Positions 1 to 20,405 of a DNA stretch of 21,542 bases are shown here, piece after piece. The stretch spans positions 1 through 21,542 of the IMG/VR virus record IMGVR_UViG_3300009155_000312; one strand, given 5' to 3'. The stretch's first letter is position 1, and every line of letters starts with the position of its first letter. This DNA comes from a virus. A program made the position numbers and the translations under genes. The notes beneath the pieces were generated by a model. It saw only the letters and a program-made list of their open reading frames with translations, was not told the DNA's origin and made no database searches.

Positions 1-815
1 CCTTGCATTTTGGTGCTCATGCTAAGGTTTTTAAGAGACATAAAAGGTCTCATGTGATCAATTACAGGAGTGAATCTTTCACCTCCATTTCCAATGCCGC
101 TTAATGTTTGTGGCATTAAAAACAATTCCATTCCCGTTCTATAACCATCACCAAGTTGCATTGACTCTGAAGAAACTTTTTCTTTTTGGCCATTTATCAT
201 TGCTATATCAACTGCTGTTAAACCACTTGGATTAAGGAATCCAATTAAGCTCATTGGAGGTGCAGTTTTTTCTGTTTTGTATAAACTGATTACATCAATT
301 GTGATATATGGAACACATTTTGAAAGTTCAATAGTTGGCATCGCATTTGCAAATACTTCAATTGCACCAGCGTCACGAGTCATAGGCCCAAGGTAAGGAT
401 TATTTACATTAGCTGCATAAATAACGTCAGATTTAGACCAAGCACCTTTTTTATTTTCCAAAAGATCTATTTGATTTAATTCACCTTTTGTTATTTTATA
501 AAACTGAAATTGGTCAGCATATTCTTTGTTTTCACTTAGATCGAATTCATTAAATGATAATGATCCATTTATAAGATTAGAAATATTTTCAGCATGACTG
601 ATTCCCGATGTTGCATTTCCAATATTTTCTACACTTCTATAAAATTCTAATCTATGTGAAGCAGATGATCCAGACGCAAGCAATTGTCTTGATTCTTTTT
701 TACCCGTATATTCTTTAATTTTCCAAGTCTTGTCAATAAATGACGCATCAGTTGTTGCACCAAAATACTTGGCAAGTTCATTTGTAGACTTTGTAAGAGA
801 AGGTGAACGTGGCAT
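1..815 (-). CDS. Large baseplate-type virion protein (N-terminal part, cut by left edge)
   Basis: An open frame runs from an ATG at 815 to the left edge without a stop, giving 271 residues of a longer protein. The start is supported by GAGG at 823-826, seven bases upstream, and by a TAATG junction with the stop of the LysM gene. The visible part has no signal peptide or membrane helix. It contains a segment reading NPYLGPMTRDAGAIEVFANA (about residues 138-157), then SKCVPYITIDVISLY, and near the cut FTPVIDHMRPFMSLKNLSMS. From memory, this arrangement recurs in large structural proteins beside the LysM/gp53 gene in T4-superfamily phages of aquatic bacteria; that is recognition, not a search result. 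Position after the tape measure and LysM genes fits a baseplate part. The missing C-terminal part may hold the informative domain. Coding is certain; the role is moderately supported. Confidence 0.8.
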   Translation of the reverse strand, partial: MPRSPSLTKSTNELAKYFGATTDASFIDKTWKIKEYTGKKESRQLLASGSSASHRLEFYRSVENIGNATSGISHAENISNLINGSLSFNEFDLSENKEYADQFQFYKITKGELNQIDLLENKKGAWSKSDVIYAANVNNPYLGPMTRDAGAIEVFANAMPTIELSKCVPYITIDVISLYKTEKTAPPMSLIGFLNPSGLTAVDIAMINGQKEKVSSESMQLGDGYRTGMELFLMPQTLSGIGNGGERFTPVIDHMRPFMSLKNLSMSTKMQ

Positions 816-1108
816 TATGCTACCTCAAGAACGGTTGCTAAGTCATCTGGTATGAGTATTCGCGTTCCTGGAGGTACTTGCAGCGCCCATCCGATTCCAC
901 TTGCGATTGCAATTACCCACCAATATCTTCCGTCACCATAATACTGACCTGCTAAATGATCAAGACGCTGGCTTTGCGACAACACCATTTCAGATGTTGT
1001 TATTGTTCCATTTGATATACCATTTCTAATTCTTGTAATACCTTCAGTTGTTGAAAGTCTACTTGGTTTAGAAATGATATTATCTTTTCTATATCTACTA
1101 ACAGGCAT
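815..1108 (-). CDS. LysM-like baseplate wedge protein, gp53/gpX type
   Basis: A 97-residue protein. Residues 48-87 show a LysM-like pattern of phage baseplate proteins: RLDHLAGQYYGDGRYWWVIA, then PPGTRILIP, that is, a helix, a YYG-D-RYWW core and a closing PGTxLxIP strand. T4 gp53 and P2 gpX carry comparable small LysM-fold domains; gp53 joins wedges to the central hub region. The first 45 residues are basic and polar and probably form an extended arm. The gene starts 10 bases after the preceding stop, with AAAGGA just before the ATG, and its TAA overlaps the next ATG (TAATG), so the three genes are likely co-translated. LysM folds can also bind peptidoglycan, but the size and position favour a structural baseplate role. 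Whether it is an orthologue of gp53 rather than a functional analogue cannot be told from sequence alone. Confidence 0.8.
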   Translation of the reverse strand: MPVSRYRKDNIISKPSRLSTTEGITRIRNGISNGTITTSEMVLSQSQRLDHLAGQYYGDGRYWWVIAIASGIGWALQVPPGTRILIPDDLATVLEVA

Positions 1109-1118
1109 TGATCATCCT

Positions 1119-4420: not shown

Positions 4421-7400
4421 TAGATAACCTGTCCACCAGCATATTTTTTGCCATTTAACCAATACTCTGTTGTCCTGTTTGAATTGCTCGTCCATTTAAA
4501 TTCACGGTTTAGATCACCGTTTTGCAAATACTCGTCAAAGTCAGGTGTTGCCTGAACAGTTCCAGCAACAACAAGTTGACCAGCAAGCTTCATTGCATCC
4601 ATTGTAACGTTCATATTAACTGTTACATTAACGGCGCCACCGTTCACGCTGACGGCGGCCTGGGCAAGATTAGATCCATTGTTAAAATCTTCGATTGCTG
4701 TGCCAATATCTATTACAGGAAGACCAGCAAGAATATCTCTAACTTCATTGGCCATTGAAACAATGCTCCAAACTTGAGCTGTGTCAAATGCTGCCGAATT
4801 TTCGGCAGCAGCAATGACTCTATTAATCATCACAATATAACTTTCTACAACGCCGCCTACGCTATCAAAATTATCTTTTAAGTTTAATAAATTCACATCT
4901 TTAAAAGTTGCTGCCATCGCTCCAAATGATTTAACAAGTGTTGTCAAAGGAGGTTCATCAAACGATACTTCTTCGCCAATACCAGTGATTGCACTAAAAA
5001 CAGGAGCACTTGCATCAAAAGTTTGTCCTGATAGCTTATTGTACAAACCCATAATGCTATCCATACCATTCAAATATGTGTCAATTACATTTAGAGCACC
5101 TTTCATTTTAATTTCAGAGACTTCCATTTGACCAATTTCTGGTAGCGTATTAGCATTGTCTAAAATACCAGGTATGGTTTTTATCATTGCAACAAGGTTA
5201 TTAGCAGCTGTCCACGCTTTTGAAGCCAAAGTTGCGTCAACACCTGACTCAGTGAATTTCAATGTTGCTGAGCTTGCTTTTTCCAAAAGATCAAAAATAG
5301 ACGCAATTTCAACAATTTTTTCTTTATTAAATTTAGTAGTGTCAATTCCTGCAATTTTATTCAATAAAGACTCGGAGCCAGATGTGCCATCACCAGTTAA
5401 TATATTCAGCGGTATCATAATAGCATCTTTTAAAAATTTTCCATATTCAACATCACCAACAGAAGTTGTTGATAATTTTGGTAAAGCTCCTACAATGCTA
5501 AGTGTATTTTTCATCATATCAATGATATTGTTCATCATTGGACCAATGATAGAAAGATTTTTAGAAGCAAGTTTAGATTTTTTTATTGTCTCTATCATAT
5601 CGGCATTTGTAAATTTATCAATTGCTGAGTGTATTAGAGTCATAAGGTCATCAAGCGAAGCATTCATTTCTACTGGATCGACTGTGTCAGCTCCAACAAC
5701 GCCAGAAGCAAATGTTGCAACACCAGCCAAAATTCCGCCACCAATGAGTTTTAGCAAAAACGTTCCAAGTGAATCTAGTACATCAGCATTTACATCTTTG
5801 AATTTATCAACATCTTGTTTTAAAAGATCAATAAACGAGATTTTGTCTTTTATTCCTGAATCTTTCCCCCAATTTCGAGGTTTATGTAATGCTGCAAAAG
5901 CAGAAACAACAGCTTCAGTAATTCGATTAATAATCATTGGCATTGAATAAATTGCAATGGTACCCATTCCAATGGCCGTTATGTTTTTGGCTCCGGTTGC
6001 TACACCAGAAAGTAGATCCCCTGCGCCGCTCATCAAATCTGAACCTAAGCTTGATAAACCGCCTCCTAATTTTGAGATATTTTCCATGCCATCATCAAGG
6101 CTTTTAGGCATTTCAAGCTTAAATCCATTTGTATATTTGTTAACAAGCATTGCCGCAGCGGCACCCCCGGCGACACCGGCGCCGGCGAGAGCGACATCTT
6201 TTCCGTTTTTACCAAGATCAATGCTTTCTTTCAAGTCTGTTAATAATTTTTCACCAATATTGCTGAAATCTAATGGATTTCCCGCCATCCAGTCGTCTGC
6301 AACTTTTTTTATAGAATCAAACAACGTCTTAAAAAAATTACCAATGGCTTTTATTTGTGGACTATTAAATGACAATTTTGAAAATGGATTATTTTTCAAA
6401 AAATTAGTTATTGATTCAACAATTGCAAGACCCATATCTGGAAGCTGCGCAATCAATTCAGTCAAAAGAGGTTCCATAGCGCTTTTCAAATCTTTTATAA
6501 ATCCAAAAATTGCGCCAAAGATAGACCCAATGACACCAGTTCCTCCTGTTGACTTTAAGCTTGCAGTTATATTTGGAATTTGTTTTATTACAAATGACAA
6601 CGATCCTTTAACAATATCAATCATAAAAGACGCTGCTTTTCTAATCATACTTGCAACGTTAATTCCACCAACGGCTCCATCAAACATCTTTCCAACTGTC
6701 TTATAAACGTTAGTGATAAGACCTTCAAAAGCTTTTGCGACATCACCATATTTCAACATGCTTGTGAATGTTTTAATATGACCAGCGATTGAAACTGCCA
6801 TATCGCCAAATTTGCTGAAGATATTTAACAGCTGCTTCCCACCTGTGATGCTACTTCCACCAAACAAAATAGTAGCAAACATTCTACCTGTTTCTTGGCC
6901 AATTGTTGCAACCCTAACCAATTGGGTGGCAAATTGACTTATAAGGCTCATGATTGAATTTGAGCCCATAAAGCCTCTTAAAAACCCTCCAATGAAAGCG
7001 TCTATGAATCCCTTAAGTTGATCAAATCCAACAATTACGTTTTTAATATTATCGGCAAGATCATTCATGATCTCTTCGGTCGACTTCTGCTTTTTCATTG
7101 CCGCGTCAGAGCCTTTTGCAATGTCATCATATGACATTGACAAACCTTTTGCCGAAAACGCAAGAGCAGCCTGCTGCTCTGTTAGACCAGATGTTTGAGC
7201 AAGAAGACTTCTTTCTTGACGGGTCATTGAATCAACAGATCTTCCCGTTGCAGCAAATGCTCTTTGAACTTCTTGAAGTCTTGCTGCTGGATCCTGAAGA
7301 TTCATCATCTTCAAAGGATCAAGAACCATTCCAAACCCTTGAGCTAATTGAGCAGCGGCATCGGCCCCTGACTCGAATTCATCAAACTTATCGACAAGAC

Positions 7401-8418
7401 CAGTTAATTCATTGATTTCAATACCTAATTTTCTTGTGAATGTTGCAGCTTTTGTCATCTCTGTGACGTAATCACCTGTCATTCTACCAAGCATTTTAAA
7501 GTTTGAAAGAGCCTTTCCAACATCAGATCCAAGAACTTTTGTTGAAACGCCCCATTGCTTTCCAATCTTATTAACAGATTCCATAATGTCTTGGCTGAAT
7601 GATTTTACTGATTTTCCTGATAGCTGGGCCAAAACACCAACTTGCTTCATTGCCTCGCTGCTAAAATTTAAACCCTTTTTCAACACATACAATTGGGCAG
7701 TTGCATCAGCAACTTGTTTTTCTCCTAAATTATCAAATGATGCACCCAGGTCTGAAATGATTCCATCCATTGCCTGTAGTTTTTCAATTCCTCCTTGCAC
7801 ACCTGGAGAAAATTTAGAACGGAAAGCGCCAGAAAATCCACTTGCTGCATTTAAAGAAGATGATAAACCTTGTGCTGTGTTTTTTATTGTTCGTGACGTA
7901 GTTTCATTAAAGCTACCGTATTTATCTCTAATCTCTTCAAGAGCTCTAGCATAATCATACCCTGCTTTTGCAAGCTCGGCGGCTTTTTCTATTAAGGTAT
8001 CATAAATTGTGTTCAAAAACCCAAATGCAGCCGCAGTAGGTCCCATAATTGCAGTTGACACTGAATTTAAATTAGTTAAAAGAAGGGTAGCGCCTTGCTT
8101 TAAAGCGTCAAAAACGACATCAACACCAGGAATAGATCCAACAAAACTTTTAATAGTATCAAGAAAAGAGCTTGCACCTTCGGAGAGCCCGCCAAATATG
8201 GAATCAAGAAAAGTCAATGATTCTGAAAATTTATCAAGCTCAGTTGATGCACCAGCAATAGATTGCGTAATTCCACTTGAAATTTGTGATTGATCACCAA
8301 GAATGTCGGGACCGCCAGAAGGTGCAGATGCAGAAGGGGATCTTTTATTAAGAGTTGCATTTAATCCGTTTAAAGCATCTACTAAAGTATTAAGCTGCTC
8401 TGAAGTGATATCACCCAT
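4420..8418 (-). CDS. Tail tape measure protein
   Basis: A 1,332-residue protein and the longest gene here, in the place expected for the tape measure: after the gp26/gp51-like chaperone frames and before the baseplate genes. Most of it is predicted helix with many short Ala/Gly/Ser/Lys-rich segments. Several hydrophobic stretches are present: near residues 120-135, about 737-758 (an Ala/Gly-rich run), about 809-831 and about 883-913. Such segments are typical of tape measures, which fill the tube, set its length and are ejected into the cell envelope before DNA. Using the usual rule of about 1.5 angstrom per residue, it predicts a tail near 200 nm, against roughly 100 nm and 590 residues for T4 and gp29. 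No lysozyme or peptidase motif was seen. The Shine-Dalgarno sequence is weak (AGGG nine bases upstream). Confidence 0.85.
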   Translation of the reverse strand: MGDITSEQLNTLVDALNGLNATLNKRSPSASAPSGGPDILGDQSQISSGITQSIAGASTELDKFSESLTFLDSIFGGLSEGASSFLDTIKSFVGSIPGVDVVFDALKQGATLLLTNLNSVSTAIMGPTAAAFGFLNTIYDTLIEKAAELAKAGYDYARALEEIRDKYGSFNETTSRTIKNTAQGLSSSLNAASGFSGAFRSKFSPGVQGGIEKLQAMDGIISDLGASFDNLGEKQVADATAQLYVLKKGLNFSSEAMKQVGVLAQLSGKSVKSFSQDIMESVNKIGKQWGVSTKVLGSDVGKALSNFKMLGRMTGDYVTEMTKAATFTRKLGIEINELTGLVDKFDEFESGADAAAQLAQGFGMVLDPLKMMNLQDPAARLQEVQRAFAATGRSVDSMTRQERSLLAQTSGLTEQQAALAFSAKGLSMSYDDIAKGSDAAMKKQKSTEEIMNDLADNIKNVIVGFDQLKGFIDAFIGGFLRGFMGSNSIMSLISQFATQLVRVATIGQETGRMFATILFGGSSITGGKQLLNIFSKFGDMAVSIAGHIKTFTSMLKYGDVAKAFEGLITNVYKTVGKMFDGAVGGINVASMIRKAASFMIDIVKGSLSFVIKQIPNITASLKSTGGTGVIGSIFGAIFGFIKDLKSAMEPLLTELIAQLPDMGLAIVESITNFLKNNPFSKLSFNSPQIKAIGNFFKTLFDSIKKVADDWMAGNPLDFSNIGEKLLTDLKESIDLGKNGKDVALAGAGVAGGAAAAMLVNKYTNGFKLEMPKSLDDGMENISKLGGGLSSLGSDLMSGAGDLLSGVATGAKNITAIGMGTIAIYSMPMIINRITEAVVSAFAALHKPRNWGKDSGIKDKISFIDLLKQDVDKFKDVNADVLDSLGTFLLKLIGGGILAGVATFASGVVGADTVDPVEMNASLDDLMTLIHSAIDKFTNADMIETIKKSKLASKNLSIIGPMMNNIIDMMKNTLSIVGALPKLSTTSVGDVEYGKFLKDAIMIPLNILTGDGTSGSESLLNKIAGIDTTKFNKEKIVEIASIFDLLEKASSATLKFTESGVDATLASKAWTAANNLVAMIKTIPGILDNANTLPEIGQMEVSEIKMKGALNVIDTYLNGMDSIMGLYNKLSGQTFDASAPVFSAITGIGEEVSFDEPPLTTLVKSFGAMAATFKDVNLLNLKDNFDSVGGVVESYIVMINRVIAAAENSAAFDTAQVWSIVSMANEVRDILAGLPVIDIGTAIEDFNNGSNLAQAAVSVNGGAVNVTVNMNVTMDAMKLAGQLVVAGTVQATPDFDEYLQNGDLNREFKWTSNSNRTTEYWLNGKKYAGGQVI
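4789..4810 (-). repeat. 10-bp palindromic hairpin inside the tape measure gene
   Basis: The arms TGCTGCCGAA and TTCGGCAGCA pair perfectly around two bases. It encodes an Ala-rich stretch, which may explain part of it. No T-run follows, so it is not a terminator by sequence. Confidence 0.4.
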
Positions 8419-8730: not shown

Positions 8731-9030
8731 TTATGTAAATCTACGAAGTCTTGCAGGAGATTCTGCTCTATTAAGACCCATTAACGCACGTGTTTGTGCA
8801 TCATTTTGGTGTGCAGCTCGGGTGGGAACATTATCTTTGTCAGAATTTTTTGTAAGCTCTCGATTTAATCTTTCAATAAACCAAACTCTGTATGTTATTG
8901 GAATATTGTAGCACTCCCAATATGAAAATCCCATGTAATACATGAGAAGGAAGGAGTGCTCAAGATAAATTTGTCGATCTTCAGGTTTCAGGCCAAAAAA
9001 ACCCGGCACCCAGCGGTACCCGCACCTCAC
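8731..9030 (-). CDS. gp51-like second frame, probably made by frameshift from the gp26-like gene
   Basis: A frame of 99 codons that overlaps the end of the gp26-like gene by 50 bases. A stop codon (TAA) lies immediately before the GTG at 9030, so that GTG is simply the first codon of the open frame. GAGG is only three bases upstream, too close for good initiation. The residues YLEHSFLLMYYMGFSYWECY and the following YRVWFIERLNRE match a short helical family that follows gp26-like genes in T4-superfamily phages and is often annotated as gp51 or baseplate hub assembly protein. A T7 run (8995-9001) in the overlap would let ribosomes pass from the gp26 frame into this one, giving a fusion of about 361 residues, as in the gpG/gpGT chaperones of other phages. 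Coding is well supported; the means of expression is inferred. Confidence 0.7.
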   Translation of the reverse strand: MRCGYRWVPGFFGLKPEDRQIYLEHSFLLMYYMGFSYWECYNIPITYRVWFIERLNRELTKNSDKDNVPTRAAHQNDAQTRALMGLNRAESPARLRRFT

Positions 9031-9817
9031 TTACCTCATTACATGAATTACAGTCATAGTCAGACTTCATGTCAATTCCAGGCTCATTCTGTTCAATATA
9101 TTTTCTAAGAGCCATAGAATCGCGAGCAGGCATGTTTCTAATAAAAGAGTTAATTGCTCCACGATCGGTTCGTCCATCAATTGAGATAATTGCATACTGA
9201 AGACGAGTTGTGACAACGTTATCAGCAATTGCTCCCTGCTTCTTAGTACGCTCTTGAACGGTAAGAATCTCTTCCTCGTCGCGGCCTGTAATAAACTTAA
9301 ACACAACAGACTTCTTGGTCAATGGAAGCTTAAACTCAAATGCGTTTTGTCCCTTTGAAACAGGCTCAATTTCAAGTCTCTTGATTGGCATGTTTGAAAG
9401 ATCAAATGTCTGCTTTGATCTATTTCCGCACTTTGGACAATCGGACTCAACAACGTAATCCTTTCCATAGCCAGTGATGCGCAATGCAACCATTACAGCG
9501 TTTCTATCACCAGACAACATATCTGGAACGTTAATCTTCTTATCAATTAAACAACTCTTGATTAACTCAGTGATGACTGTTCCTTTCTTAATAAGGGCTC
9601 GTGAAGTCAAAATATCTTCCTCACGTGCAGTCATTGATCTGATGTCAACTGTTTCTGAACAATGCAATGGTGAATCAACTGAATAGGTTACTCCATTAGA
9701 AGGAAGTGGAACGGATTCAACAGGAATCTCAAATCCGAAATCATCCTTCATAACATCCTTTACCTGAATTCCAGCAGGGACTGCACCACCAAAAAGATCA
9801 CTACGATTTTCTCCCAC
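8981..9817 (-). CDS. gp26-family baseplate hub / tail assembly chaperone with zinc-ribbon cysteines
   Basis: A 278-residue protein of the T4 baseplate protein (gp26) family. The hallmark is IRSMTAREEDILTSRALIKK at residues 59-78, followed by VITELIKSCL. A pair of CxxC motifs, C127-C130 and C256-C259, looks like a split zinc ribbon. The start is GTG at 9817, supported by AGGAG (9824-9828) six bases upstream. The protein ends GAGFFWPET just after a T7 run in which the overlapping gp51-like frame becomes reachable. In T4, gp26 and gp51 are needed for hub assembly; the position here, before the tape measure, is also that of tail assembly chaperones. The gene has its own 56-base leader, containing a TACTTATA element, after the enzyme cassette. 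Family assignment is confident; the split between structural part and chaperone is not resolved. Confidence 0.82.
   Translation of the reverse strand: MGENRSDLFGGAVPAGIQVKDVMKDDFGFEIPVESVPLPSNGVTYSVDSPLHCSETVDIRSMTAREEDILTSRALIKKGTVITELIKSCLIDKKINVPDMLSGDRNAVMVALRITGYGKDYVVESDCPKCGNRSKQTFDLSNMPIKRLEIEPVSKGQNAFEFKLPLTKKSVVFKFITGRDEEEILTVQERTKKQGAIADNVVTTRLQYAIISIDGRTDRGAINSFIRNMPARDSMALRKYIEQNEPGIDMKSDYDCNSCNEVSEVRVPLGAGFFWPET
8995..9001 (-). promoter_or_regulatory. Candidate ribosomal frameshift site (T7 run)
   Basis: On the coding strand the gp26-like frame reads GGG TTT TTT TGG. Slippage of the phenylalanine tRNA from TTT (second codon) forward by one base re-pairs perfectly with TTT and places GGC in the A site, entering the gp51-like frame; a -2 shift would give the same frame. 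Three bases upstream is a possible 6-bp hairpin with a GCTG loop (9005-9020). The zero-frame stop follows three codons after the TGG. Confidence 0.5.
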
Positions 9818-9873: not shown

Positions 9874-10908
9874 TTAGGTTGAAACCCACAATCTCATGTT
9901 ATTCACTCTATTTTTTATTGTTTTGTAAAATTCAAAAACCAACCCATTATCACCATCAGCAATATTTTGCATCATGTTTAGGAGTTGTGTTGCTTCATTT
10001 TTATTAAAAAATGTTCTAAATCCCTTTTCAAATCCTTGTGATGCAGCCTTTAGATATCTGTGAATTTCTAAAAGCATTTTGTCTGACTTAAGCTTATCAT
10101 GATTTCCCACTAAACCATTAATTCTTTCAATTATTTGTTCGCTAGTGTAGTAGTTGCTTTTTTCTGAGAATATTGAATATATTGGAGCTTGAATCCTTTG
10201 AATATCAGCATATGTTATATTTGGAATCTTAAAGTCTTTTGATGCGCCGGTTGCAAAAACGCCTTCTGATGATCCTCCAAAAGTACTTTCACCAAAAATC
10301 TCAAGAAAGTATCTTGAAACAAGCATTTCAGTTTCTACTTTCATTGCTTTTGTAATTTTTGGACTAGAAGCAAGATTGTCACGAGCGTGTTGAATTTTTT
10401 GACGAAGTTCTGGAGGGAGTGGTTTTGGTCTTTTTATAATGTCGTCTTTGCAAAGAAACTTTACATATTTTTGATTTGTATTGAGAAGCATGCACAAATT
10501 CTTTGACATTGCACCTGTAAATTCAATAGCAATTGGAATATCACCAATTACATAATCAATGTAATCAGGTCTATTCTCTGGCTTAATAACTTCAAATTTG
10601 TATGTTGCATTTGTCCTTTTCATTAAATTTGAGTATTTAAGTGTTTTTGCAACACCTCCAATATCAAATTTAGGCGAATGAGGCGCGCCTTTTTTAATAC
10701 CGTCTTTTTGATTTGCTGTTATCCAACCATTCTCAATTTTAACATCTAAAAACTGACCTGCCAACTTTTCAGTAAAAGTTAATAGTGGTTCTCTTCCAAG
10801 AATGTCGTCAAGAACATTTAGAATATCTGTATATTCTAAGTCTTGAATTCTGGGTGTACCTTCAGAGATTATCACTCGAAGATATTTTTGAAAAGTTGAT
10901 ACATTCAT
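9874..10908 (-). CDS. Nucleic-acid-ligase-like phage protein (probable nucleotidyltransferase fold)
   Basis: A 344-residue protein. Residues 46-61 read TEKLAGQFLDVKIENG, which resembles ligase/mRNA-capping motif I (KxDG) with lysine 48 in place but alanine where aspartate is usual. Residues 106-130 form a strand-rich section (KFEVI...IPIAIEFTG) like the middle motifs, and EGVF at 215-218 followed by KDFKIPN (224-230) resembles motifs IV and V. The spacing fits the ligase fold and recalls an unassigned phage family (DUF6267-like, from memory) with EKxDG and EGVVF motifs that often sits beside a nucleotidyltransferase gene. The C-terminal third is helical. Its ATG overlaps the upstream stop as ATGA, with AGGA eight bases before, so the two are co-translated. 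Whether it joins nucleic acids, transfers a nucleotide to something else or has lost activity is unknown. Confidence 0.55.
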   Translation of the reverse strand: MNVSTFQKYLRVIISEGTPRIQDLEYTDILNVLDDILGREPLLTFTEKLAGQFLDVKIENGWITANQKDGIKKGAPHSPKFDIGGVAKTLKYSNLMKRTNATYKFEVIKPENRPDYIDYVIGDIPIAIEFTGAMSKNLCMLLNTNQKYVKFLCKDDIIKRPKPLPPELRQKIQHARDNLASSPKITKAMKVETEMLVSRYFLEIFGESTFGGSSEGVFATGASKDFKIPNITYADIQRIQAPIYSIFSEKSNYYTSEQIIERINGLVGNHDKLKSDKMLLEIHRYLKAASQGFEKGFRTFFNKNEATQLLNMMQNIADGDNGLVFEFYKTIKNRVNNMRLWVST

Positions 10909-11666
10909 ATCATCAATCCTATAAGATTACGAATCATATTTTCAACAGTGGGTTTCCACACTGTGCGCGGACAACTATTTGCAGCTGATGTTTTTAGTGT
11001 CTCATAAATTTCTATTGCTATATCCATTGGAACAGGAGGGAGAAGCTTAATAAACTTTTCACGCTCATCATTACAAAGATAATTTCTCATCTTTGTTCCG
11101 CTGATGTCAATTGTTGCCGATCTTGAAAGACCAACCTTGCTAATTGTTGATTGAAGAAGTCCAGGATATTTCTTTTCAAGATTTTTATCAGGATAATTTG
11201 TGTTGATGTCTTCTTCATCAGAATAAATGTTAATTACCAAATCTCTTATGTCAACTTCAATTTCAGCATAAGGAATTATAACTGTTGTTTGATTAGCTTC
11301 TTTTGCTTGTTGAACTGCATCAAGAATTGTATAAACACATAAAACGGGTGATGTAGGTATCCCATCATCTGGTGTCATAATCTTTGTATTTTTTGGAAGC
11401 TTAAGATTTGGTATCAAAAGATTTTTCCAAATGTATCGCATATCACTTCCATAAACAGGAGTATCACCTGCAATTGGAACTTCACCTTTTGAAGTTTTCT
11501 TGACACCTCTGCTAGAAAATGAAACAAAAACAAGAACTAGATCATTTTCAGGACCTTCAGTTCTTTTGATTTCATTGCTGACAACTCCCATTGCAGCAAA
11601 CTGAACAAGCAGATGGTGACCAAGGTGATATGGCTTGGCCGACATTGGAACTAGTCCGATATTCAT
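10905..11666 (-). CDS. Cytidylyltransferase/NMNAT-like nucleotidyltransferase
   Basis: A 253-residue protein of the HxGH nucleotidyltransferase superfamily. The N-terminus MNIGLVPMSAKPYHLGHHLL carries HLGH at residues 14-17 after a short first strand, and ISGTKMR at 188-194 is the second signature (ISxTxxR), which binds the triphosphate. The superfamily includes NMN adenylyltransferase, pantetheine-phosphate adenylyltransferase and glycerol-phosphate cytidylyltransferase; the substrate cannot be decided here. The end of the domain, EKFIKLLPPV, then helices, resembles other phage-encoded members. A strong terminator lies just upstream, so the gene probably needs its own promoter or read-through; a CATACTTA element lies 20 bases before the ATG. 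It overlaps the ligase-like gene by four bases, suggesting a joint job. An NAD-related or nucleotide-transfer role is plausible but unproven. Confidence 0.72.
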   Translation of the reverse strand: MNIGLVPMSAKPYHLGHHLLVQFAAMGVVSNEIKRTEGPENDLVLVFVSFSSRGVKKTSKGEVPIAGDTPVYGSDMRYIWKNLLIPNLKLPKNTKIMTPDDGIPTSPVLCVYTILDAVQQAKEANQTTVIIPYAEIEVDIRDLVINIYSDEEDINTNYPDKNLEKKYPGLLQSTISKVGLSRSATIDISGTKMRNYLCNDEREKFIKLLPPVPMDIAIEIYETLKTSAANSCPRTVWKPTVENMIRNLIGLMI

Positions 11667-11685
11667 AGTTAAATTCCACTCAAAT

Positions 11686-11693
11686 TAAGTATG
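11686..11693 (-). promoter_or_regulatory. Possible promoter element before the nucleotidyltransferase gene
   Basis: The coding strand reads CATACTTA about 20 bases before the ATG at 11666, similar to GATACTTA in both sheath leaders. A promoter is expected here because the preceding hairpin should end transcription, but the element is short and could be chance. Confidence 0.22.
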
Positions 11694-11700
11694 AAGCTTT

Positions 11701-11743
11701 AGAAAAACAAAAGGCACGACTTTTGAAAAAGTCGTGCCTTTTG
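11701..11743 (-). terminator. Strong intrinsic terminator after the tail tube gene
   Basis: A perfect 17-bp inverted repeat (11708-11724 with 11727-11743) around a GA/TC centre, with core GGCACGAC/GTCGTGCC, is followed on the minus strand by TTTTTCT. It begins 11 bases after the tail tube stop. The A-rich outer arm gives it some terminator character on the plus strand too, but no plus-strand gene is present. Confidence 0.85.
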
Positions 11744-11754
11744 TCATTACTTTA

Positions 11755-12243: not shown

Positions 12244-12282
12244 TTTAAACTCCTTTTTGATTAACTATTACTGAGATATCGA

Positions 12283-15200
12283 TTATTCAAGAGATCCAGC
12301 TGCAACAAAGTCAATTGATATGAATTCAGCAGCCTTGGTAGGCTGAAGATAGATTTTTCCACGAATTGTGTTATTTTCAATATCGGCCTGAGTTGTTGTA
12401 GTTGTATCAATCTGCACGCGATATCTCTCGACACCTCTTTGCGACTGAACCTGCTTCATTATAGGTGTTACGAGTGCATTGAATCTAGCAATAGTAGATT
12501 CACGATTTGGCTCAAACAAAAGTGTATTGGCAACAGCCTTCACTCTACGACGAACCTCAATCAAAAGTCTGCGAACGTTAACGCGATCAAGTGATGAACC
12601 TTCATGCAATAGTGTTCTTTGTCCTGAAATAACAATGCTTGGTGCTGCGCCTGTTGGAACACTTACCAAAGGATTGATACCAGCGTCATAGACGGTATCA
12701 ACATTTTCATTGATAAACAAGGTGTCAAGAGTTTCACCTGGGATTGTTGCTCTGTTATAGCCTGCTGGGGCTGTCCAAGCAAATCCCACTGTGTCATTCA
12801 ATGAATATGCACCAAGAACCATTGTTGATGTTGGCAATCTAACTGTCTGGGCAATTCCAGTTCCAGGATCTACTGAAACATTCACATTCGGGAAGTAAGC
12901 TGCTCCAAACGAGTTGTTCAATCCACGGTTGCGGAATCGACTAGTTGTGTAGTTTAGATTTACGTTAGGATATGAATCTGATGAGATTGATGCAGTGATG
13001 TAATTGTTATTATCATCCTTCAACTCAATGTCCATAACATACAAAGCGTCAAATCTTGTTTGCATTGAGCTAAGTGTGTAATCTGTAACAGCTGGATGGC
13101 GCATGTCTGGGATTGCAAGAAGGCTGATGTCTGAGTATGTCTTTTCACTCATAATATCAACTGCTTTACGATATGCCGCAACTGTTGGTCCAGAAAGCTG
13201 TCCTTGATTTGAGTTATCAAGCTCACGTCTAACAGCTGCATCTCTCATATAGAACTTGTCCGCATCAAAAATATTCAATCCGTCAAATCCACCCTGCATG
13301 AATGCAGTAAACTTCAAATAAGAGGTAGTTCCTGTTTCTTTGAAATCTACATTGGGATCAACAAATCTACCAGTTAGTGATGCATTGAGAACGCCACCTC
13401 TTTGATAAACAGCCTCATCCCAACGTGTTGAATCAATCTTGTCAGAACTTGTCATTATCTGAATATTTTCAAGAGTGAAAAGATTGTTATTGAATCTGTC
13501 AGCGTCAAGAACTGAGCCATTAACATTAGCAGTTCCAGTATTATCACCAACCCAAGGGTTGAGATAAGAAGTATGAAACTTTGGAAAGTACTTTGTGTAT
13601 GCAAGAAGACTGTTAGCATCTAGCAACTGTGTTCCATCGTTTGGCTGTGTCAATGTGTTGTATGTTGTGAACTGTGTTCCCCAATACAACTTGCTTTCAC
13701 CATAAACACCATCTGCTCCGGCGGTACCACCAACATTGATGCTACGACGATAAGGGATTGGAAGCTCCTTAGCGTTAGTCAATGGAACATTTAGGTGTGA
13801 ACTGTTACCAACTGATCCAGTTGCAAGCAATCCATTTCCTGATGTTACAAGGTGATAATAACCACGATGTCCAACAGGCATTGTGTTAGATGGAATCATT
13901 TTGTTGATAACATCATCACTAATTTCTACGCGAACAATTCTAGATGACTTTCCGTAAAGACCTTCTTCAACAACCTTTTGTGAATCAACTGATCTGTCGA
14001 AGTCGTAATAAACGTTAAGGTCGCCAATCTTCTTTCCTATAAAGCTTTCACTGTCAGGATCTAGATTACAATTAGCATAAGACTCTATAACGCCAGCAAG
14101 GTCACCATCTTCAGCATCCCAATTTCTAATCTCAACAGTAAATTTTGCGTATGCTCCAGCAACTGTTGGATACTTAATGTCCTTGATTGACACCTTGTAG
14201 AGTGAGTTTGAGTATTCACCATCTGAACGTGCATGAATCTTAAATAGATCGTAGCGTGTTCCACCAAAATTTTGTGAAACAAAATATGGTGTCATTGGAT
14301 GTGTGTATCTATCCTGAAAACCTTCATAGTTAGGTGATGTGGTGGTTCCATCATTTCTTGACTGTGATCCAGAAAGACAGAATACAATCTCTTCAATGGC
14401 TGTTCCTACACTGACTCTTCTAATGTTTGCTTCGTTAGATACACCTGAACCGGTTGGAACAGCAAGAACAGTAGGAATGTCATAGTGGTTGTAAAGAACG
14501 TAACCATGCTCTTCCAAAAGAAGTGGATCACGGTTAAACTTTGTACCAAAATAATCATTTGATGTTGGATCAAAAGATGATGTCAAAATGCTTGGATAAG
14601 AAACTGAATCATTGTGTCCATTTAGGAAAAGAACAAACTTCTGATTACCGCCTTGAAGATCCAAAGAACCTGTGAACCATCCTTTAGCAGGTGACTTTGT
14701 AGTTGCAGTGGAAGAGTACGTATCTGACGTTACGCCTGGTGCTGAGCTAGATAGAGTAATCTGAACACCAGATGCTGCAAAGAGAACACCTCTAACAATT
14801 GGCTGGGCAGCAGTTGATGACTGAAGACCAGCACCTGAAAATGCCCATGATCCAGCAGACTCAGACATGTAGCATCCAAGGAAGTATGTTCTTCCTTCAA
14901 TACCTGTAGCTGTTGCATATGGGTTATTTGCAAGTTGACCTGTCGATGTTTGCACTTTTTGTGAGCCTACAACGAAACCTGCATTTGTTACACTACCAGC
15001 GTTTGGAGACGACAGACTGCGTGTCTTACAATCACCTGCACCCAAAACTCTTACATAAGTTCCAGCTGAAGCATTGTTCAACCACTCATGCAACGCAAAT
15101 GGTGCATGATAGTGAGCATCTGGTTGTCCAAATTCTTTTGCAAACTGTGTGTTATCAGCAAATGTTAGAGGAACAAATGCTGTTCCCTGAGTAGCAGTGC

Positions 15201-15291
15201 CAACAACGCCAGCCGAACGGCCGGATGGCTGTACTTCAGTCGATCCGCCGGTAAGATCTATTTCTCTTAGGACTATGCCTGGGGCTGCCAT
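12283..15291 (-). CDS. Tail sheath protein, second copy (gp18-like paralogue B)
   Basis: A 1,002-residue sheath protein, longer than T4 gp18 (659). The N-terminus APGIVLREIDLTGG is the arm that links neighbouring subunits, leading to TYVRVLGAG near residue 86. The C-terminal domain (from about residue 901) contains LDRVNVRRLLIEVRRRVKAV, LLFEPN and, close to the end, AAEFISIDFVAAG, the conserved sheath core. FDGLNIFDA is another shared block. It matches the upstream sheath gene in these blocks and in the middle (IGKKIGD, SLYKVSI, VGHRG), so the two are tandem paralogues that diverged a good deal. AAGGAG (15298-15303) lies six bases before the ATG. Sheath subunits contract to drive the tube through the host envelope. 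Whether this copy makes the main sheath or a minor part cannot be told. Confidence 0.9.
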   Translation of the reverse strand: MAAPGIVLREIDLTGGSTEVQPSGRSAGVVGTATQGTAFVPLTFADNTQFAKEFGQPDAHYHAPFALHEWLNNASAGTYVRVLGAGDCKTRSLSSPNAGSVTNAGFVVGSQKVQTSTGQLANNPYATATGIEGRTYFLGCYMSESAGSWAFSGAGLQSSTAAQPIVRGVLFAASGVQITLSSSAPGVTSDTYSSTATTKSPAKGWFTGSLDLQGGNQKFVLFLNGHNDSVSYPSILTSSFDPTSNDYFGTKFNRDPLLLEEHGYVLYNHYDIPTVLAVPTGSGVSNEANIRRVSVGTAIEEIVFCLSGSQSRNDGTTTSPNYEGFQDRYTHPMTPYFVSQNFGGTRYDLFKIHARSDGEYSNSLYKVSIKDIKYPTVAGAYAKFTVEIRNWDAEDGDLAGVIESYANCNLDPDSESFIGKKIGDLNVYYDFDRSVDSQKVVEEGLYGKSSRIVRVEISDDVINKMIPSNTMPVGHRGYYHLVTSGNGLLATGSVGNSSHLNVPLTNAKELPIPYRRSINVGGTAGADGVYGESKLYWGTQFTTYNTLTQPNDGTQLLDANSLLAYTKYFPKFHTSYLNPWVGDNTGTANVNGSVLDADRFNNNLFTLENIQIMTSSDKIDSTRWDEAVYQRGGVLNASLTGRFVDPNVDFKETGTTSYLKFTAFMQGGFDGLNIFDADKFYMRDAAVRRELDNSNQGQLSGPTVAAYRKAVDIMSEKTYSDISLLAIPDMRHPAVTDYTLSSMQTRFDALYVMDIELKDDNNNYITASISSDSYPNVNLNYTTSRFRNRGLNNSFGAAYFPNVNVSVDPGTGIAQTVRLPTSTMVLGAYSLNDTVGFAWTAPAGYNRATIPGETLDTLFINENVDTVYDAGINPLVSVPTGAAPSIVISGQRTLLHEGSSLDRVNVRRLLIEVRRRVKAVANTLLFEPNRESTIARFNALVTPIMKQVQSQRGVERYRVQIDTTTTTQADIENNTIRGKIYLQPTKAAEFISIDFVAAGSLE

Positions 15292-15329
15292 TAAAAACTC
15301 CTTAATATTCTCATTTAGCTATAAGTATC
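15292..15329 (-). promoter_or_regulatory. Leader of second sheath gene, resembles that of the first
   Basis: The coding strand carries TGATACTTATAGCT, then ATATTA and AAGGAG. The order TGATACTTA, GCT, ATATTA, AGGAG is the same as in the first sheath leader, with small gaps. It may be a phage late promoter duplicated with the gene, or simply a retained leader. TGATACTTA here overlaps the stop of the first sheath gene. Confidence 0.35.
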
Positions 15330-18300
15330 ACACGAACTCGACACCAGCAGGCGTGATGATGAAATCAACAGCAATAAATTCAACTGATCTTGTTGGAATA
15401 ACAACAATGCGACCATTCAATCTACTTGCTGCAACATCTTCAGCTGTGTTGTTTGTATCGTCCATCACAATCTTGTAGTTCTCAATACCAGCCTGAGCCT
15501 TGATGAGAGCGAGGATTGGTGTTGCTTGGCTAACAAATGTTTTTCTTGTTGTTGCATCATTTGGCTCGAAGAGAAGACCTCTAGCGACGTCCTGGATGAC
15601 CCTCTTAATTTCGAGGAACAATCTTCTAACATTTACTCTGTCAAATGCTGATTTAGTAACCTGAAGAGTCTTCTGACCAAAGATTACGAAACCTGAGCTT
15701 GGGAACGTTGCGACAGGATTGATTCTGTTTTCATAGAGGTAATCACGATCGGATGTGCTCAATCTAACGTCAACGTTTGAAACAAAGTCAAGGGCTGCGC
15801 GGTTGAAACCTGCTGGTGCATACCATGGGTAAGAAACCTTGTCGCTGTATGAAAGAGCTCCGAGAGCAGCTACTGATGCTGGAACCTTCACACGTCTATT
15901 ATATGTTGTGTCATTGACATAAACATCTGGGAAGTATGTAGCAGAGTAATTGCTGTTTGGTGCGCGACTAGTGAGAGCGTCAGCTGTCTTTGTTACATTT
16001 GGCTTCAGTGTAGAATCTTCAAAGATTCTAGTATTAGAATCTGAATATGAAGGAATGTCAAGCAAATACATTTCAAGAGCGTAAGTTGGAAGTCTTCTCA
16101 TAATGTAATCGGTAATCAAAGGATCTTTGATTCCGGGAGTTGCAATGATATTGGTGTTAACAGTAAGCTTATCGGTCATAAGCTTAGATGCAACTTTGTA
16201 GCTATTAACAGCATTGTTGCTCAAACCATTACCGTTTGGATCATATCCAAGACCAGAGCGAGCAATATTTGCTGCTCCACCGGCTGCAAGTCCACCTGGC
16301 TCAGTTGAAGTAGCGCGATCTCCCATTCTTGCCGCGGCTGCATCCATAATGTTTAGTCCATCAAATCCACCATAGAACATGGTTGAGAACTTTGAATAAT
16401 CACTAAACTTATTGAAAAGTGCAGCTGAACCTGAAAGTACCGAGGCAATTGTTAGACGATTTCCAATTGTATCTGAGATGGTGTATGTTGATGCGTCAGG
16501 GGTTCCATTGCGAACGTATGCTGCTTCCTTCATGTGGGCATCAGATGTTCCTGTGACATCATTGATGCTTGTGTTTGAAAACGCAACCCTTGCCAATGTA
16601 AATTTGTTGGCGTTGAATGCATCGGCATCAGAGCCAGTAATGAGTGCATCAAGCTTGCTAATTCCTTGGAAGCGTGAGTATGCTGAAACAATATTGTTGA
16701 ATTCAGTTCCATCATTTGAATTCATGACTGAATTTTCAATTGTTCCATCAATTGTTCCAGATGGAACAAGTCGCTCAAACTTAACGCCCCAGTGATATCT
16801 GGAATCTGGAATCTCAAGAATACCTGGCTCACCAATGTATGAAAGACCATTCACTTGACCCTTTGTGACCTTGAATCTAAAAGGAAGTGGTGGAACAATA
16901 GATCCTGTAAGTCCAGTTTCAACTGAACTGCTACATGCAAGTCTTGGAAAAGCTCCTGCTGTTCCAAATGTGCGCCCGCCAAGAGTGAGAGAGCTTGCAG
17001 TGTCGGTAAGTGTCTGTGTTGTTCTAACAACAGGAATTCCTCTGAATCCAAATGGTAGTGCATTCTTTGGAACTGCGCCATTGTCAAGAACAGATGATAC
17101 AATTACTCTGACATACTTGCTTGCATTTGGAAACTTGCCGCTGATCATCAATCTCTGCTCAGCTTCATCAGTTGCATCAAAGTTAAACGTAACTTTTCTG
17201 TCACCAATCTTTTTTGCAATGTAGTTGCTGCTAAGTGGATTTAAATCACAACCGCCGTAATACTCAAGTACTTTTGTTGATGTGTCTGTGTCGTAAAGAT
17301 CTCTAATAGCAACATCAAATGTTCCATAAGGATTCTTTGGATCAGTTGATGCTCTGATGTTAGAGATTGACACTTTGTAAAGACCGTTTCCAGATGAACC
17401 ATCGGTTATTGTCTCAAAGTGGAAAAGATCATGTTCCATATTTCCAAATGGCTGAGAGATAAATGATGGAGTACGTGAAGTTGTGTAACGAGTATCATAC
17501 TTTCCAAAATTCTGGAGCCACGAGCTGGTGCTTCCTGATGTGATAGCAACACATCTATCACCTGCTGTGTCAATTCCTGCAACTTCATTATCAACAGGAA
17601 AATCTAGATAGAGAAGATGCTGTTCTTCTTGGAACTTCTTTGGGTCAGTATTAAGAACTTTTGCAAAGTAATCTGTGTTATTTGGATCAAATGAAGCAGT
17701 CAGCATCTTAATGCCAGGATTGCCATCAAACGATGCAAATGATGATCCAACTGATGATGAAATTGCAAACTTAAACTTTAGATAAGTTGTTGATGAGGAG
17801 TCAAGATCGACTGATGCGACGTCATCAATTGTGGCGCCTGTTCCTGTCCACTGTGAATTGGCACCGGTCATATCAAGAACCATTCCGCGGGCGCCTGTAG
17901 GAAACATAATAACGCCGCGAACAATGTTCAGTGTGTCGCTGCTTGCTGGGTTAAAGCTTGGGTTGTCGCTGAAAACTGGAAAACCCTTCCACTCAGATGG
18001 TGTAGCTGTGCTTGCTGGTAGTGCGTGACGAGCTGTAAGAAATTGAACAGCACCTGACTTTCTTAAATCAAGAGCTGGTAGTCCTTGTGTAGAACCTGTT
18101 ACTCGGAATCCTGCATTTTTGACTGTTCCGTTTGCAGCAGTGCTTGATACATCTGCTGCCGATGAATTTGCACCTGCGCCAAGAACTCTTATGAAAGTGA
18201 GTGCTCCCTTATTCTTGAGAAATTCATTAGCGGCGTATGAAGCAGGACGCTCAGGATCGAGACCTCCAAACCTTGCCGTAAAATCAGAAAAAGAACCTAC

Positions 18301-18441
18301 AGTTGTTGGAACGAATGCTGGGCCGGCTGCGGCTGCTCCAATCAATCCACCTGGGACGCCTGTTGGCTGCGCTCCAGGCGCTGTGAGCTCAATCTCCTGC
18401 TCAAAAAAACCAGGAGAGCGAAAAGTCTGTTCAGACATCAT
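15328..18441 (-). CDS. Tail sheath protein, first copy (gp18-like paralogue A)
   Basis: A sheath protein of 1,036-1,037 residues. Two ATG codons are adjacent (18441 and 18438); AGGAG at 18444-18448 is two bases from the first and five from the second, so the second is probably used. RSPGFFEQEIELTAPG at the N-terminus is the subunit-linking arm, with LTFIRVLGAG near residue 88. The C-terminal core begins near 933 with FDRVNVRRLFLEIKRV, LLFEPN and SVEFIAVDFIITP, as in the next gene. FDGLNIMDAAA is present in the middle. T4 gp18 has 659 residues, so both copies carry about 350 extra residues, probably surface domains. It follows the gp15-like gene after a 54-base gap holding the leader motif, and precedes the second sheath copy. 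Confidence 0.92.
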   Translation of the reverse strand: MMSEQTFRSPGFFEQEIELTAPGAQPTGVPGGLIGAAAAGPAFVPTTVGSFSDFTARFGGLDPERPASYAANEFLKNKGALTFIRVLGAGANSSAADVSSTAANGTVKNAGFRVTGSTQGLPALDLRKSGAVQFLTARHALPASTATPSEWKGFPVFSDNPSFNPASSDTLNIVRGVIMFPTGARGMVLDMTGANSQWTGTGATIDDVASVDLDSSSTTYLKFKFAISSSVGSSFASFDGNPGIKMLTASFDPNNTDYFAKVLNTDPKKFQEEQHLLYLDFPVDNEVAGIDTAGDRCVAITSGSTSSWLQNFGKYDTRYTTSRTPSFISQPFGNMEHDLFHFETITDGSSGNGLYKVSISNIRASTDPKNPYGTFDVAIRDLYDTDTSTKVLEYYGGCDLNPLSSNYIAKKIGDRKVTFNFDATDEAEQRLMISGKFPNASKYVRVIVSSVLDNGAVPKNALPFGFRGIPVVRTTQTLTDTASSLTLGGRTFGTAGAFPRLACSSSVETGLTGSIVPPLPFRFKVTKGQVNGLSYIGEPGILEIPDSRYHWGVKFERLVPSGTIDGTIENSVMNSNDGTEFNNIVSAYSRFQGISKLDALITGSDADAFNANKFTLARVAFSNTSINDVTGTSDAHMKEAAYVRNGTPDASTYTISDTIGNRLTIASVLSGSAALFNKFSDYSKFSTMFYGGFDGLNIMDAAAARMGDRATSTEPGGLAAGGAANIARSGLGYDPNGNGLSNNAVNSYKVASKLMTDKLTVNTNIIATPGIKDPLITDYIMRRLPTYALEMYLLDIPSYSDSNTRIFEDSTLKPNVTKTADALTSRAPNSNYSATYFPDVYVNDTTYNRRVKVPASVAALGALSYSDKVSYPWYAPAGFNRAALDFVSNVDVRLSTSDRDYLYENRINPVATFPSSGFVIFGQKTLQVTKSAFDRVNVRRLFLEIKRVIQDVARGLLFEPNDATTRKTFVSQATPILALIKAQAGIENYKIVMDDTNNTAEDVAASRLNGRIVVIPTRSVEFIAVDFIITPAGVEFV

Positions 18442-18478
18442 TGCTCCTATGCTAATATACTAGTCTAAGCTAAGTATC
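18442..18478 (-). promoter_or_regulatory. Leader of first sheath gene with shared motif
   Basis: The coding strand reads TGATACTTAGCT, then TATATTAGC and AGGAG before the two ATG codons. The same blocks in the same order occur before the second sheath gene. The motif starts about 30 bases upstream of the start codon in both cases. No standard -35/-10 pair or T4 late promoter is clear. Confidence 0.35.
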
Positions 18479-18495: not shown

Positions 18496-19755
18496 TCAAC
18501 GTGATTTCAAATCATTATTAGTTTTAAACGTTTTGCGAATGTTGGTCAAAACTTCCTCTCCGTGTGCATTAGACACCCTTCTGGCCTTTAATGTAATCTC
18601 TACTTGCTGCCCAGTTATAGGGTCTTCTGTAAGTGTTCTAGTGACACTATTGACCATAGTTGATGATGTTCCTGTGTCACCAACTGAAGTGTCTGGATTC
18701 AGAATTTTAGATGTTCCAGCTGTTTGCAAACCGCCCGCGGCCATAGCGCTTTGAGATGATGGTGATGACCCAATTGCTTGTAATGGAACAGGATCATCCA
18801 CAGTTGCAATGTTGTCTAAGATATGCCCATCAATTCTCATGTCTTGGACATTTCCTCTTTGAACTTGGTCATTAACACCATTTATAATCTCAAATGATAT
18901 CTGTGTAGCTGATGATAACTTTCTAACTCCACTTGGAATACCAGGAAGCTTAGGATTGATAATGAACCCTTGCACTGTTGCCTTTAGTGAATTCTTAATA
19001 ACACGTTCGTCATCAGTCATATTGTCAAATGTGTTGTCAGTGCTAATGTCTGAATCAAACGTAGCAACAAACCAATATCCAGAATCAGTTTCAATCCTAC
19101 AAGTTCGTGCTTTTACGTTGTGATAGCTGCTCATAATAAGAGTCAAGATGTCATTGCTGTGCTGAACGTATTGCGTCCATAGAGTAATTTCATAAGTAAG
19201 AGTAAAAAACTTAGGAGTAGGAATCGTTATTGTCTCGTAAATACCAACTCCAAGGCTAGGCTCTAATAAGCGACCTCCAAGTGTTCGACCAGCAGAAGTT
19301 TGATTTTCTCGTCTAGATGTTGCCTCATCAACATTTTTAAAATTTTGAGAATTTATCAATCTTTGATAAACTGCATCTTCTTTTGATAGACGTCGTTTAA
19401 TATCAATTGTTCCAATGTCGCCCATTTCAACCAAACGATCAGCTTTTTGGTCAAGTCCAGTTCGAGAAATAGTCACCAAAGGAATGATAAGAGCACCATT
19501 TTTGTCTCTTACGGGTTCTTTTCTTCTATTAATTGCAAATCGCTCACCTGTAGAGAAAATAATGGGAACCTTTTTTATTTCTCCATCTTTTTTAGCATAA
19601 ACAATGGGAATGTCTTTGTCAAATAGATTAAAAAACGCTCTATCAATGTCTTCTATACCACAACTTGGAACGTCGACCCTTTCACCAGTCTCTGAGTATC
19701 CAAGATCGATTGATTTGTCGCCATATTTTCTTTTTGTATTAAATCGTGTGCTCAT
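18496..19755 (-). CDS. Tail completion and sheath stabiliser protein (gp15-like)
   Basis: A 419-residue protein, longer than T4 gp15 (272). Near the N-terminus, DRAFFNLFDKDIPI and KKVPIIFSTGERFAI match the gp15 pattern of a helix then a strand ending VPI-(Y/F). PLVTISRTGL follows, and a second conserved block lies at about residues 170-270: KFFTLTYEITLWTQYVQHSN, a helix DILTLIMSSYHN, and later LKATVQGFIINP, as in the gp15 motif of a YELSIFTRY strand, a helix and a closing strand. T4 gp15 caps the top of the tube and sheath and joins the tail to the neck. The C-terminal 130 residues are polar and probably flexible. It starts by ATGA overlap with the gp14-like gene. Order 13-14-15-18-19 as in T4 supports the call. 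Confidence 0.78.
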   Translation of the reverse strand: MSTRFNTKRKYGDKSIDLGYSETGERVDVPSCGIEDIDRAFFNLFDKDIPIVYAKKDGEIKKVPIIFSTGERFAINRRKEPVRDKNGALIIPLVTISRTGLDQKADRLVEMGDIGTIDIKRRLSKEDAVYQRLINSQNFKNVDEATSRRENQTSAGRTLGGRLLEPSLGVGIYETITIPTPKFFTLTYEITLWTQYVQHSNDILTLIMSSYHNVKARTCRIETDSGYWFVATFDSDISTDNTFDNMTDDERVIKNSLKATVQGFIINPKLPGIPSGVRKLSSATQISFEIINGVNDQVQRGNVQDMRIDGHILDNIATVDDPVPLQAIGSSPSSQSAMAAGGLQTAGTSKILNPDTSVGDTGTSSTMVNSVTRTLTEDPITGQQVEITLKARRVSNAHGEEVLTNIRKTFKTNNDLKSR

Positions 19756-20405
19756 TCATCACCATAAAATGATGAACTTACGCCATCATTAGTAACTTTT
19801 TTAGGACCTGTTAGTGGAGTATCAAGCTTTCCATCGGCCTGGAGCTCGCGCCTATCATTTGTGGGACCAAGATCATTTTGCTCAGCGCCTCTTTGTTGAA
19901 CAAATTGCTCCTGAACAACAGGCTCAGTGTCATATGTTAATGCTTGAGGGCCAAGTGGCTTCTTATCAATAAGTCCTTCACGTGCCTGCTTACCTGTCAA
20001 CTTATAACCTGTCACATGTTCGACTTGTCCAAAAATTTTGCTAACGGTATTGACCTGTGTAAGCTCAAAGAAAATTGAACCATATGAAATAAAGTCACCC
20101 ATCTTCATTCTAAAATTCTTATCAGATAGATCTCTAGCATGAACGCGCACTTCGATATTGTGAAATTTGTCAGTTCCAAATTTATTTGTTTTTATTTCAG
20201 CTGGTGACCAATCAACAAGTGCGTCAATCTCAACGGGAGGGTCAAATATTTTTTCAATTGACTCCTCATAAATGTCGTGAATGGAAGTAATGTCAGCTCT
20301 TACTGGATAGTAGTAAATTTTTTGCCCGATGATGTCCTTCACGATCTCTTTGTTGAGATCACTAATGAAATCAATTTCGCGAGGTGTGATAAAAAGTCTT
20401 GCCAT
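19752..20405 (-). CDS. Neck protein (gp14-like)
   Basis: A 217-residue protein. The motif IGQKIYYYPVRADITSIHDIYEESI (start near residue 27) corresponds to the T4 gp14 segment with a VYYVPRE-type strand followed by an acidic stretch; FHNIEVRVHARDL and KMGDFISYGSIFFELTQVNT (near residues 110-130) match the gp14 blocks that end in a GD(L/F)I-F-E-V strand. T4 gp14 (256 residues) forms the neck with gp13, seals the filled head and gives the tail its docking site. The last 60 residues are polar, rich in Gln and Asp. It starts three bases after the gp13-like stop and overlaps the gp15-like gene by four. Similarity is judged by eye and is distant. Confidence 0.68.
   Translation of the reverse strand: MARLFITPREIDFISDLNKEIVKDIIGQKIYYYPVRADITSIHDIYEESIEKIFDPPVEIDALVDWSPAEIKTNKFGTDKFHNIEVRVHARDLSDKNFRMKMGDFISYGSIFFELTQVNTVSKIFGQVEHVTGYKLTGKQAREGLIDKKPLGPQALTYDTEPVVQEQFVQQRGAEQNDLGPTNDRRELQADGKLDTPLTGPKKVTNDGVSSSFYGDE

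Follow-up and report, generated by a model that had tools for sequence, protein, structure and literature searches.

What are two tail sheath genes for, when the usual picture of a contractile sheath is a polymer of one protein? The question is raised by IMG/VR virus record IMGVR_UViG_3300009155_000312, of which positions 1 to 21,542 (the window, 21.5 kb) carry tail genes on the minus strand. A first-pass annotation of this DNA had read a tandem pair of diverged sheath genes in it and had suggested that the tail could be built of two sheath types. The gene call is borne out: two intact open reading frames (ORFs) on the minus strand, which we call sheath A (upstream) and sheath B (downstream), both match sheath families (Table 1). 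On balance, we favor reading the pair as the genes of a two-component sheath, whose members would take non-interchangeable places and most likely dock on each other.

Two sheath paralogues kept side by side

Sequence and predicted fold identify A and B as probable contractile tail sheath proteins resembling T4 gp18. Both match the tail-sheath family phrog_23 (209 bits for A, 118 bits for B), with A the nearer of the two to generic T4-like sheaths, and both exceed the Pfam cut-off for PF17482, the sheath C-terminal domain; for PF04984, A falls below the family cut-off and B has no listed match. Aligned end to end, the proteins share 32% identity and 47% positives over 1,091 columns (BLASTP, E = 2e-116), and profile–profile alignment pairs them over 932 columns with a probability of 100% (E about 5e-196). 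The blocks that the first-pass annotation had listed stand in the same order in both translations, namely an N-terminal SPG/APG..EI arm, RVLGAG, GGFDGLNI, DRVNVRRL and LLFEPN. A gp18-type sheath fold is predicted for both: the models (predicted local distance difference test score (pLDDT) 79.9 and predicted template modeling score (pTM) 0.84 for A; pLDDT 83.6 and pTM 0.83 for B) have the T4-like sheath 9f4a as their best fold match, with Z 26.7 and a root-mean-square deviation (rmsd) of 3.9 over 438 aligned residues for A and Z 28.5 and rmsd 4.4 over 435 for B. The extended ends of these monomer models, N-terminal arms included, are at low confidence. Solved sheaths are matched by both proteins in sequence (PDB) as well as in predicted fold, and among the PDB sequence matches T4 gp18-type sheaths are the closest.

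We searched IMG/VR with each sheath protein and recovered about 100 loci. A is followed directly by B in all 73 informative contigs, none of which has A without B; 19 further contigs end too early to show the order. The contigs are not all independent, and those with both genes complete hold 40 distinct A/B protein pairs. An artefact or misassembly is ruled out by the 73 contigs with the A–B order. In whole-record searches, eight records of the lineage, which may be incomplete, have two sheaths each (three in one record) and one tube match each, and a single sheath was found in such relatives as Mel-JY01, RM378, immuto, S-SKS1, Mosig and a T-even phage. The contrast that had been drawn with the single sheath gene of T4 holds for its relative Yersinia phage TG1, which has one in the whole record. 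In this large lineage of uncultured, T4-like phages from water, two neighboring sheath genes stand where T4 has one. Three tandem sheaths occur in six contigs (L062, L063, L065, L066, L093 and L097, some perhaps from the same virus); by tree placement, the third sheath of this one subclade is a later, faster-evolving duplicate of B, and the L093 record has one tube gene.

The A–B–tube order also appears in three contigs binned in bacterial metagenome-assembled genomes (MAGs): L168 (Flavobacteriales), L170 (Halobacteriovorax) and L169 (NHDW01000006.1, 305,838 bases, binned as a Methylococcaceae MAG), the last of which is either a mis-binned huge phage of the lineage or a chimera. Because these bins name three unrelated taxa, host assignment from them was dropped and we claim no host. 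Genes for gp23-type capsids are present in five lineage records (L160–L164); the capsids are longer than in relatives (630–690 residues), and the break of their PF07068 match into two parts hints at an inserted domain.

In a tree of 90 proteins, A forms one clade and B another, each with 100% support in the Shimodaira–Hasegawa-like approximate likelihood ratio test (SH-aLRT). A slower analysis of 35 proteins gave A and B support of 100/99 or better and recovered both groups in 100% of 200 bootstrap trees. Because A and B are two fully supported sister clades, one duplication predates the whole lineage; apparently, it followed the split from Mel-JY01, immuto and LR756508.1. The two are therefore sister paralogues and not members of unrelated sheath families, and the objection that a tree might have raised against the pair fails. 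The A and B trees mirror each other. The ratio of nonsynonymous to synonymous substitution rates (dN/dS) is about 0.03–0.14 in both copies between near relatives, and about 0.06 against the nearest relative, values that indicate strong purifying selection on both and agree with the earlier claim that each retains the full sheath core and neither is degraded. B diverges faster than A, by a factor of 1.16, and in 96% of contig pairs it is A that is better conserved. The pair is neither a recent nor a decaying duplication.

The distant relative L099 has two sheaths of its own (49-3687 and 4942-7965), with two small genes between them, which group with each other and not with A and B and hint at another duplication. 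That they are direct orthologues of A and B was considered and set aside: joining either copy with B was rejected in the approximately unbiased (AU) test (p = 0.002 and 0.003), with long branches present.

Crossed constraint on donor arms and acceptors

In sheaths resolved by cryo-electron microscopy, rings are locked together by strand donation: N- and C-terminal strands from subunits of ring n enter the acceptor domain of ring n-1 (PMC10811340, PMC10457771). By homology, the two termini of A and of B correspond to donor arms, and the acceptor to a hairpin at A 986-1016 and B 957-984. These elements are constrained in opposite ways in A and B. The N-terminal arm of A has a majority frequency of 0.88, at the 98th percentile among windows of equal length, and reads SPGFF or SPNFF in 53 of 53 A proteins and in 0 of 48 B proteins; all 53 A proteins also have a terminal motif of the G-x-x-F type. 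With divergence scaled to each protein's own mean, the donor arms score 0.49 in A and 1.06 in B and the acceptor 0.76 in A and 0.38 in B, the bootstrap intervals being narrow and non-overlapping. In B, both an attachment-helix-like segment and the acceptor hairpin are more conserved than their counterparts in A. In an unguided scan of 883 windows, none was more B-constrained than the acceptor, and the N-terminal arm ranked second among A-specific windows, of which the first and third (A residues 875-890 and 910-924) lie in the C-terminal core. The divergence in constraint is therefore concentrated in the lattice-forming part of the proteins. When distance matrices of arms and acceptors were compared, an initial Mantel test returned p = 0.02 for each of the cross-type pairs, but this signal lost significance against random segments (see below).

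The acceptor motif reads TNNT in A and in several single-sheath phages but TTTTT in most B proteins. Its polarity was considered as evidence of a change in B and rejected, since TT is also present in RM378 and in one of the L099 copies.

The suggestion that the copies might differ in exposed domains holds only in part. Inserts of about 130 to 400 residues do vary between phages, following A residue about 124 in L041, L046, L074 and L076 and B residue about 130 in L075, L078, L079, L081, L083 and L095. The two sites are, however, one homologous exposed loop, filled in A or in B depending on the phage, and it is the inner handshake domain that shows the strongest and most consistent A/B differences. 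Among distant phages, A inserts share about 44% identity, as if they were a mobile surface module; they matched no Pfam family.

Tail module and late-promoter-like motifs

The sheath genes adjoin the tail tube gene within a phage tail module, a setting that places them with gp18-like sheaths. In transcription order, the module runs from the adaptor-like gene through two unmatched genes to sheath A, sheath B and the tube, followed by two more unmatched genes, the hub-like gene and a gene for a 1332-residue protein (Table 1). A second ATG, 3 nt downstream of the annotated start of sheath A and used by most orthologues, is a possible alternative start. The two genes between tube and hub (9874-11666, minus strand; 253 and 344 residues) have no family match, and the first of them begins with a nucleotidyltransferase-like HLGH segment; in most relatives, unlike in the window, tube and hub genes are close neighbors. 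At about 11667-11754, 3' of the tube gene, is a hairpin with a T run.

Table 1 Features of the tail module in the window
Feature	Position	Strand	Evidence or remark
Sheath A, 1037 aa, upstream copy	15328..18441	-	ORF; phrog_23 3e-61; PF17482; predicted model; fold match
Sheath A, putative N-terminal donor arm, residues 3-22	18376..18435	-	nearly invariant; relative divergence 0.42
Sheath A, putative acceptor hairpin, residues 984-1018	15388..15492	-	strands in predicted model; relative divergence 0.76
Sheath A, last strand and putative C-terminal arm, residues 1021-1037	15331..15381	-	conserved
Sheath B, 1002 aa, downstream copy	12283..15291	-	ORF; phrog_23 7e-34; PF17482; predicted model; fold match
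Sheath B, putative N-terminal donor arm, residues 1-17	15241..15291	-	variable; relative divergence 1.00
Sheath B, putative acceptor hairpin, residues 953-986	12334..12435	-	nearly invariant; relative divergence 0.38
Sheath B, last strand and C-terminal tail, residues 989-1002	12286..12327	-	tail variable
Motif GATACTTA upstream of sheath A	18471..18478	-	coding-strand RATASTTA, late-promoter-like
Motif GATACTTA upstream of sheath B, overlapping the stop of A	15322..15329	-	coding-strand RATASTTA, late-promoter-like
Motif AATAGTTA upstream of tube	12262..12269	-	coding-strand RATASTTA, late-promoter-like
Tail tube, 162 aa	11755..12243	-	phrog_4542 3e-28; directly downstream of sheath B
Head-tail adaptor-like protein, 362 aa	20409-21497	-	homologue by family match
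Two proteins between adaptor and sheath A	19752-20405 and 18496-19755	-	no family match
T4 baseplate-hub-like protein	8981-9817	-	homologue near tube
1332-aa protein in tape-measure position		-	after hub-like gene in transcription order

The window contains three coding-strand copies of the motif RATASTTA, directly before A, B and the tube, a number that within the window alone is not above chance; it has no coding-strand copy of the classical T4 late promoter, TATAAATA. Across 1.08 Mb of related loci, RATASTTA occurs 219 times on the coding strand versus 16 times on the other. A looser form, RATA[CGT]TTA, precedes 46 of 56 B genes at a distance of 25-47 nt and 44 of 56 A genes, mostly at 36-45 nt. 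Some of these loci overlap and the counts are therefore inflated, but overlap cannot create a strand bias. We infer that RATASTTA is the late promoter of the lineage, as a variant of the T4 late promoter. If so, each sheath gene could be transcribed on its own, and the motif could serve to map late genes across the lineage.

Arrangement in the tail and known multi-sheath systems

That A and B are both structural sheath subunits with different roles appears likely. Because the arms of A and the acceptor of B are near invariant whereas the arms of B and the acceptor of A are looser, docking of A on B fits best. In the scheme we propose, a single duplication would have preceded the radiation of the lineage, both copies being retained since. 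Both proteins would probably be made late, each from its own promoter, and would be packed around one type of tube in the virion. The arms of A entering the acceptor of B would form a tight joint and the arms of B entering the acceptor of A a looser one, and rings of A and B could then alternate, for example with tight and loose joints in turn. For A–B docking or ring alternation specifically, we put the chances at a little short of even. Strictly alternating rings with two kinds of joint are a more tentative idea; they would resemble the diffocin sheath CD1363, in which sheath conformers alternate in layers with a double-ring repeat (PMC10996793), although diffocin uses one protein in two conformers and not two genes. 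Should a polymer of two ring types exist, the three-sheath subclade may have a further one.

Several points weigh against the two-component reading. The donor arms and acceptor hairpins were assigned by homology to known sheaths and not seen in a complex, and the presence of both proteins in virions is predicted from the genes. Among 17 disjoint contig pairs, the asymmetry is modest, appearing in 13 for the arms and in 12 of 16 for the acceptor. The covariation of arms and acceptors, when 39 contigs were set against a null of random segments, was not significant (p = 0.13-0.15), although its direction favors the cross-type pairs. Finally, sequence constraint is indirect evidence here because beta-strand docking is partly mediated by the backbone.

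In the main rival, the trunk is made of one copy, and the other supplies just one ring, either at the baseplate, where its arms would dock into a gp25-like wedge protein, or at the neck, where its acceptor would take a strand of the tail terminator. A fixed partner of this kind could explain the invariant arms of A or the invariant acceptor of B: BW1 in the Milano baseplate accepts the arms of the first ring (PMC10811340), and a strand of the phiCD508 neck terminator joins the last ring (PMC11948020). The Photorhabdus virulence cassette (PVC) also offers a precedent, with Pvc3 and Pvc4 beside Pvc2; the Pvc2 sequence accounts for 30 chains in 3 PDB entries, and Pvc3 and Pvc4 for 6 chains each in one baseplate entry. 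A trunk protein should, however, conserve arms and acceptor alike, which neither copy does, and A and B are both full-size, each with its own motif. We regard a special ring as rather unlikely. Mixed rings are improbable, whether with A and B in the same hexamer (for example, ABABAB) or incorporated interchangeably. In their favor are the common core kept in both copies and the case of phage CP220, in whose virions at least two gp18 types, whatever their arrangement, were detected (PMC2853527); the constraint divergence at arms and acceptor speaks against free interchange.

It is very improbable that one copy is no longer a sheath and has become a decoration or collar protein or a decaying duplicate. 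B does evolve faster (ratio 1.16) and is weaker on generic sheath profiles (118 vs 209 bits), but it retains a complete core under low dN/dS, and its acceptor hairpin and attachment-helix-like segment are better conserved than those of A, which is what one would predict for a lattice subunit. We give hardly any credence to alternative tails, in which each virion would use A or B and two virion types would differ, for example, in surface domains or host range. This possibility was raised for CP220 (PMC2853527), and the exposed loops do differ in size between phages; against it stand the fixed tandem order, the mirrored trees, the lack of any loss in 73 contigs and of any tie to mobile elements, and a main A/B divergence that lies in the inner domain and not on the surface. 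A two-component sheath with distinct places for A and B remains our preferred reading.

Multi-component sheaths are already documented in PaBG, CP220, IBB_35 and the Afp and PVC devices, and Evseev et al. (2022) pointed out the presence of two sheath genes in some phage genomes (PMC9230969). A two-component sheath is described for Pseudomonas phage PaBG and the 'Lupandier' jumbo phages; in the PaBG virion, mass spectrometry found both sheath proteins, and a duplication was inferred (PMC7412058). Like the window, PaBG has two diverged sheath genes from one duplication (38% identity vs 32% here), but its copies are about 550 residues long and 117 kb apart, whereas A and B are tandem. The two PaBG sheaths are sisters at 100% in our tree, and joining PaBG gp76 with B was rejected (AU p = 0.0001). 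The trees thus indicate that the A/B duplication is separate from that of PaBG: the two systems share the possession of two paralogues and not the event. Sheath duplication accordingly has at least two separate origins, and probably more.

The Campylobacter phages CP220/CPt10 and IBB_35 are, like the present lineage, T4-like with several gp18 genes, at least two types being detected in CP220 virions (PMC2853527) and three genes being present in IBB_35 (PMC3322345). Their copies are partly dispersed, one lying beside a transposase, and they have several gp19 tube genes, in contrast to the one tube match in each of the eight lineage records, possibly incomplete. The two CP220 sheaths that we tested fall outside the A and B clades, on long branches. 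Closer at hand, the uncultured huge phage LR756508.1 (484 kb) belongs to the same super-lineage and has two diverged sheaths about 1 kb apart; these are about 830 residues long and lie outside both clades, and a test of their mutual sisterhood gave an AU p of 0.147. Afp2/3/4 and Pvc2/3/4 likewise put several sheath paralogues in one device and are among the PDB sequence matches (Afp4 being absent from the list for A), but they are much smaller proteins (354-451 residues) of non-phage, headless extracellular contractile injection systems, whereas the window has a head-tail adaptor homologue and the lineage gp23-type capsids.

Our literature search, incomplete in coverage, found no paper describing the double sheath of this lineage. 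New here is that T4-like aquatic phages share a tandem pair across a whole lineage, with an origin separate from that in PaBG; that this pair goes with one tube gene and, in a subclade, with a derived third copy; and that the pattern of constraint separates the roles of the copies. Such a lineage is a natural experiment for asking how genes might divide lattice position, contraction and surface domains among themselves, and the crossed constraint turns the choice among alternating, zoned and end-ring sheaths into a question for the bench. Together with PaBG, and probably CP220, these separate origins suggest that sheath duplication is recurrent in phage evolution.

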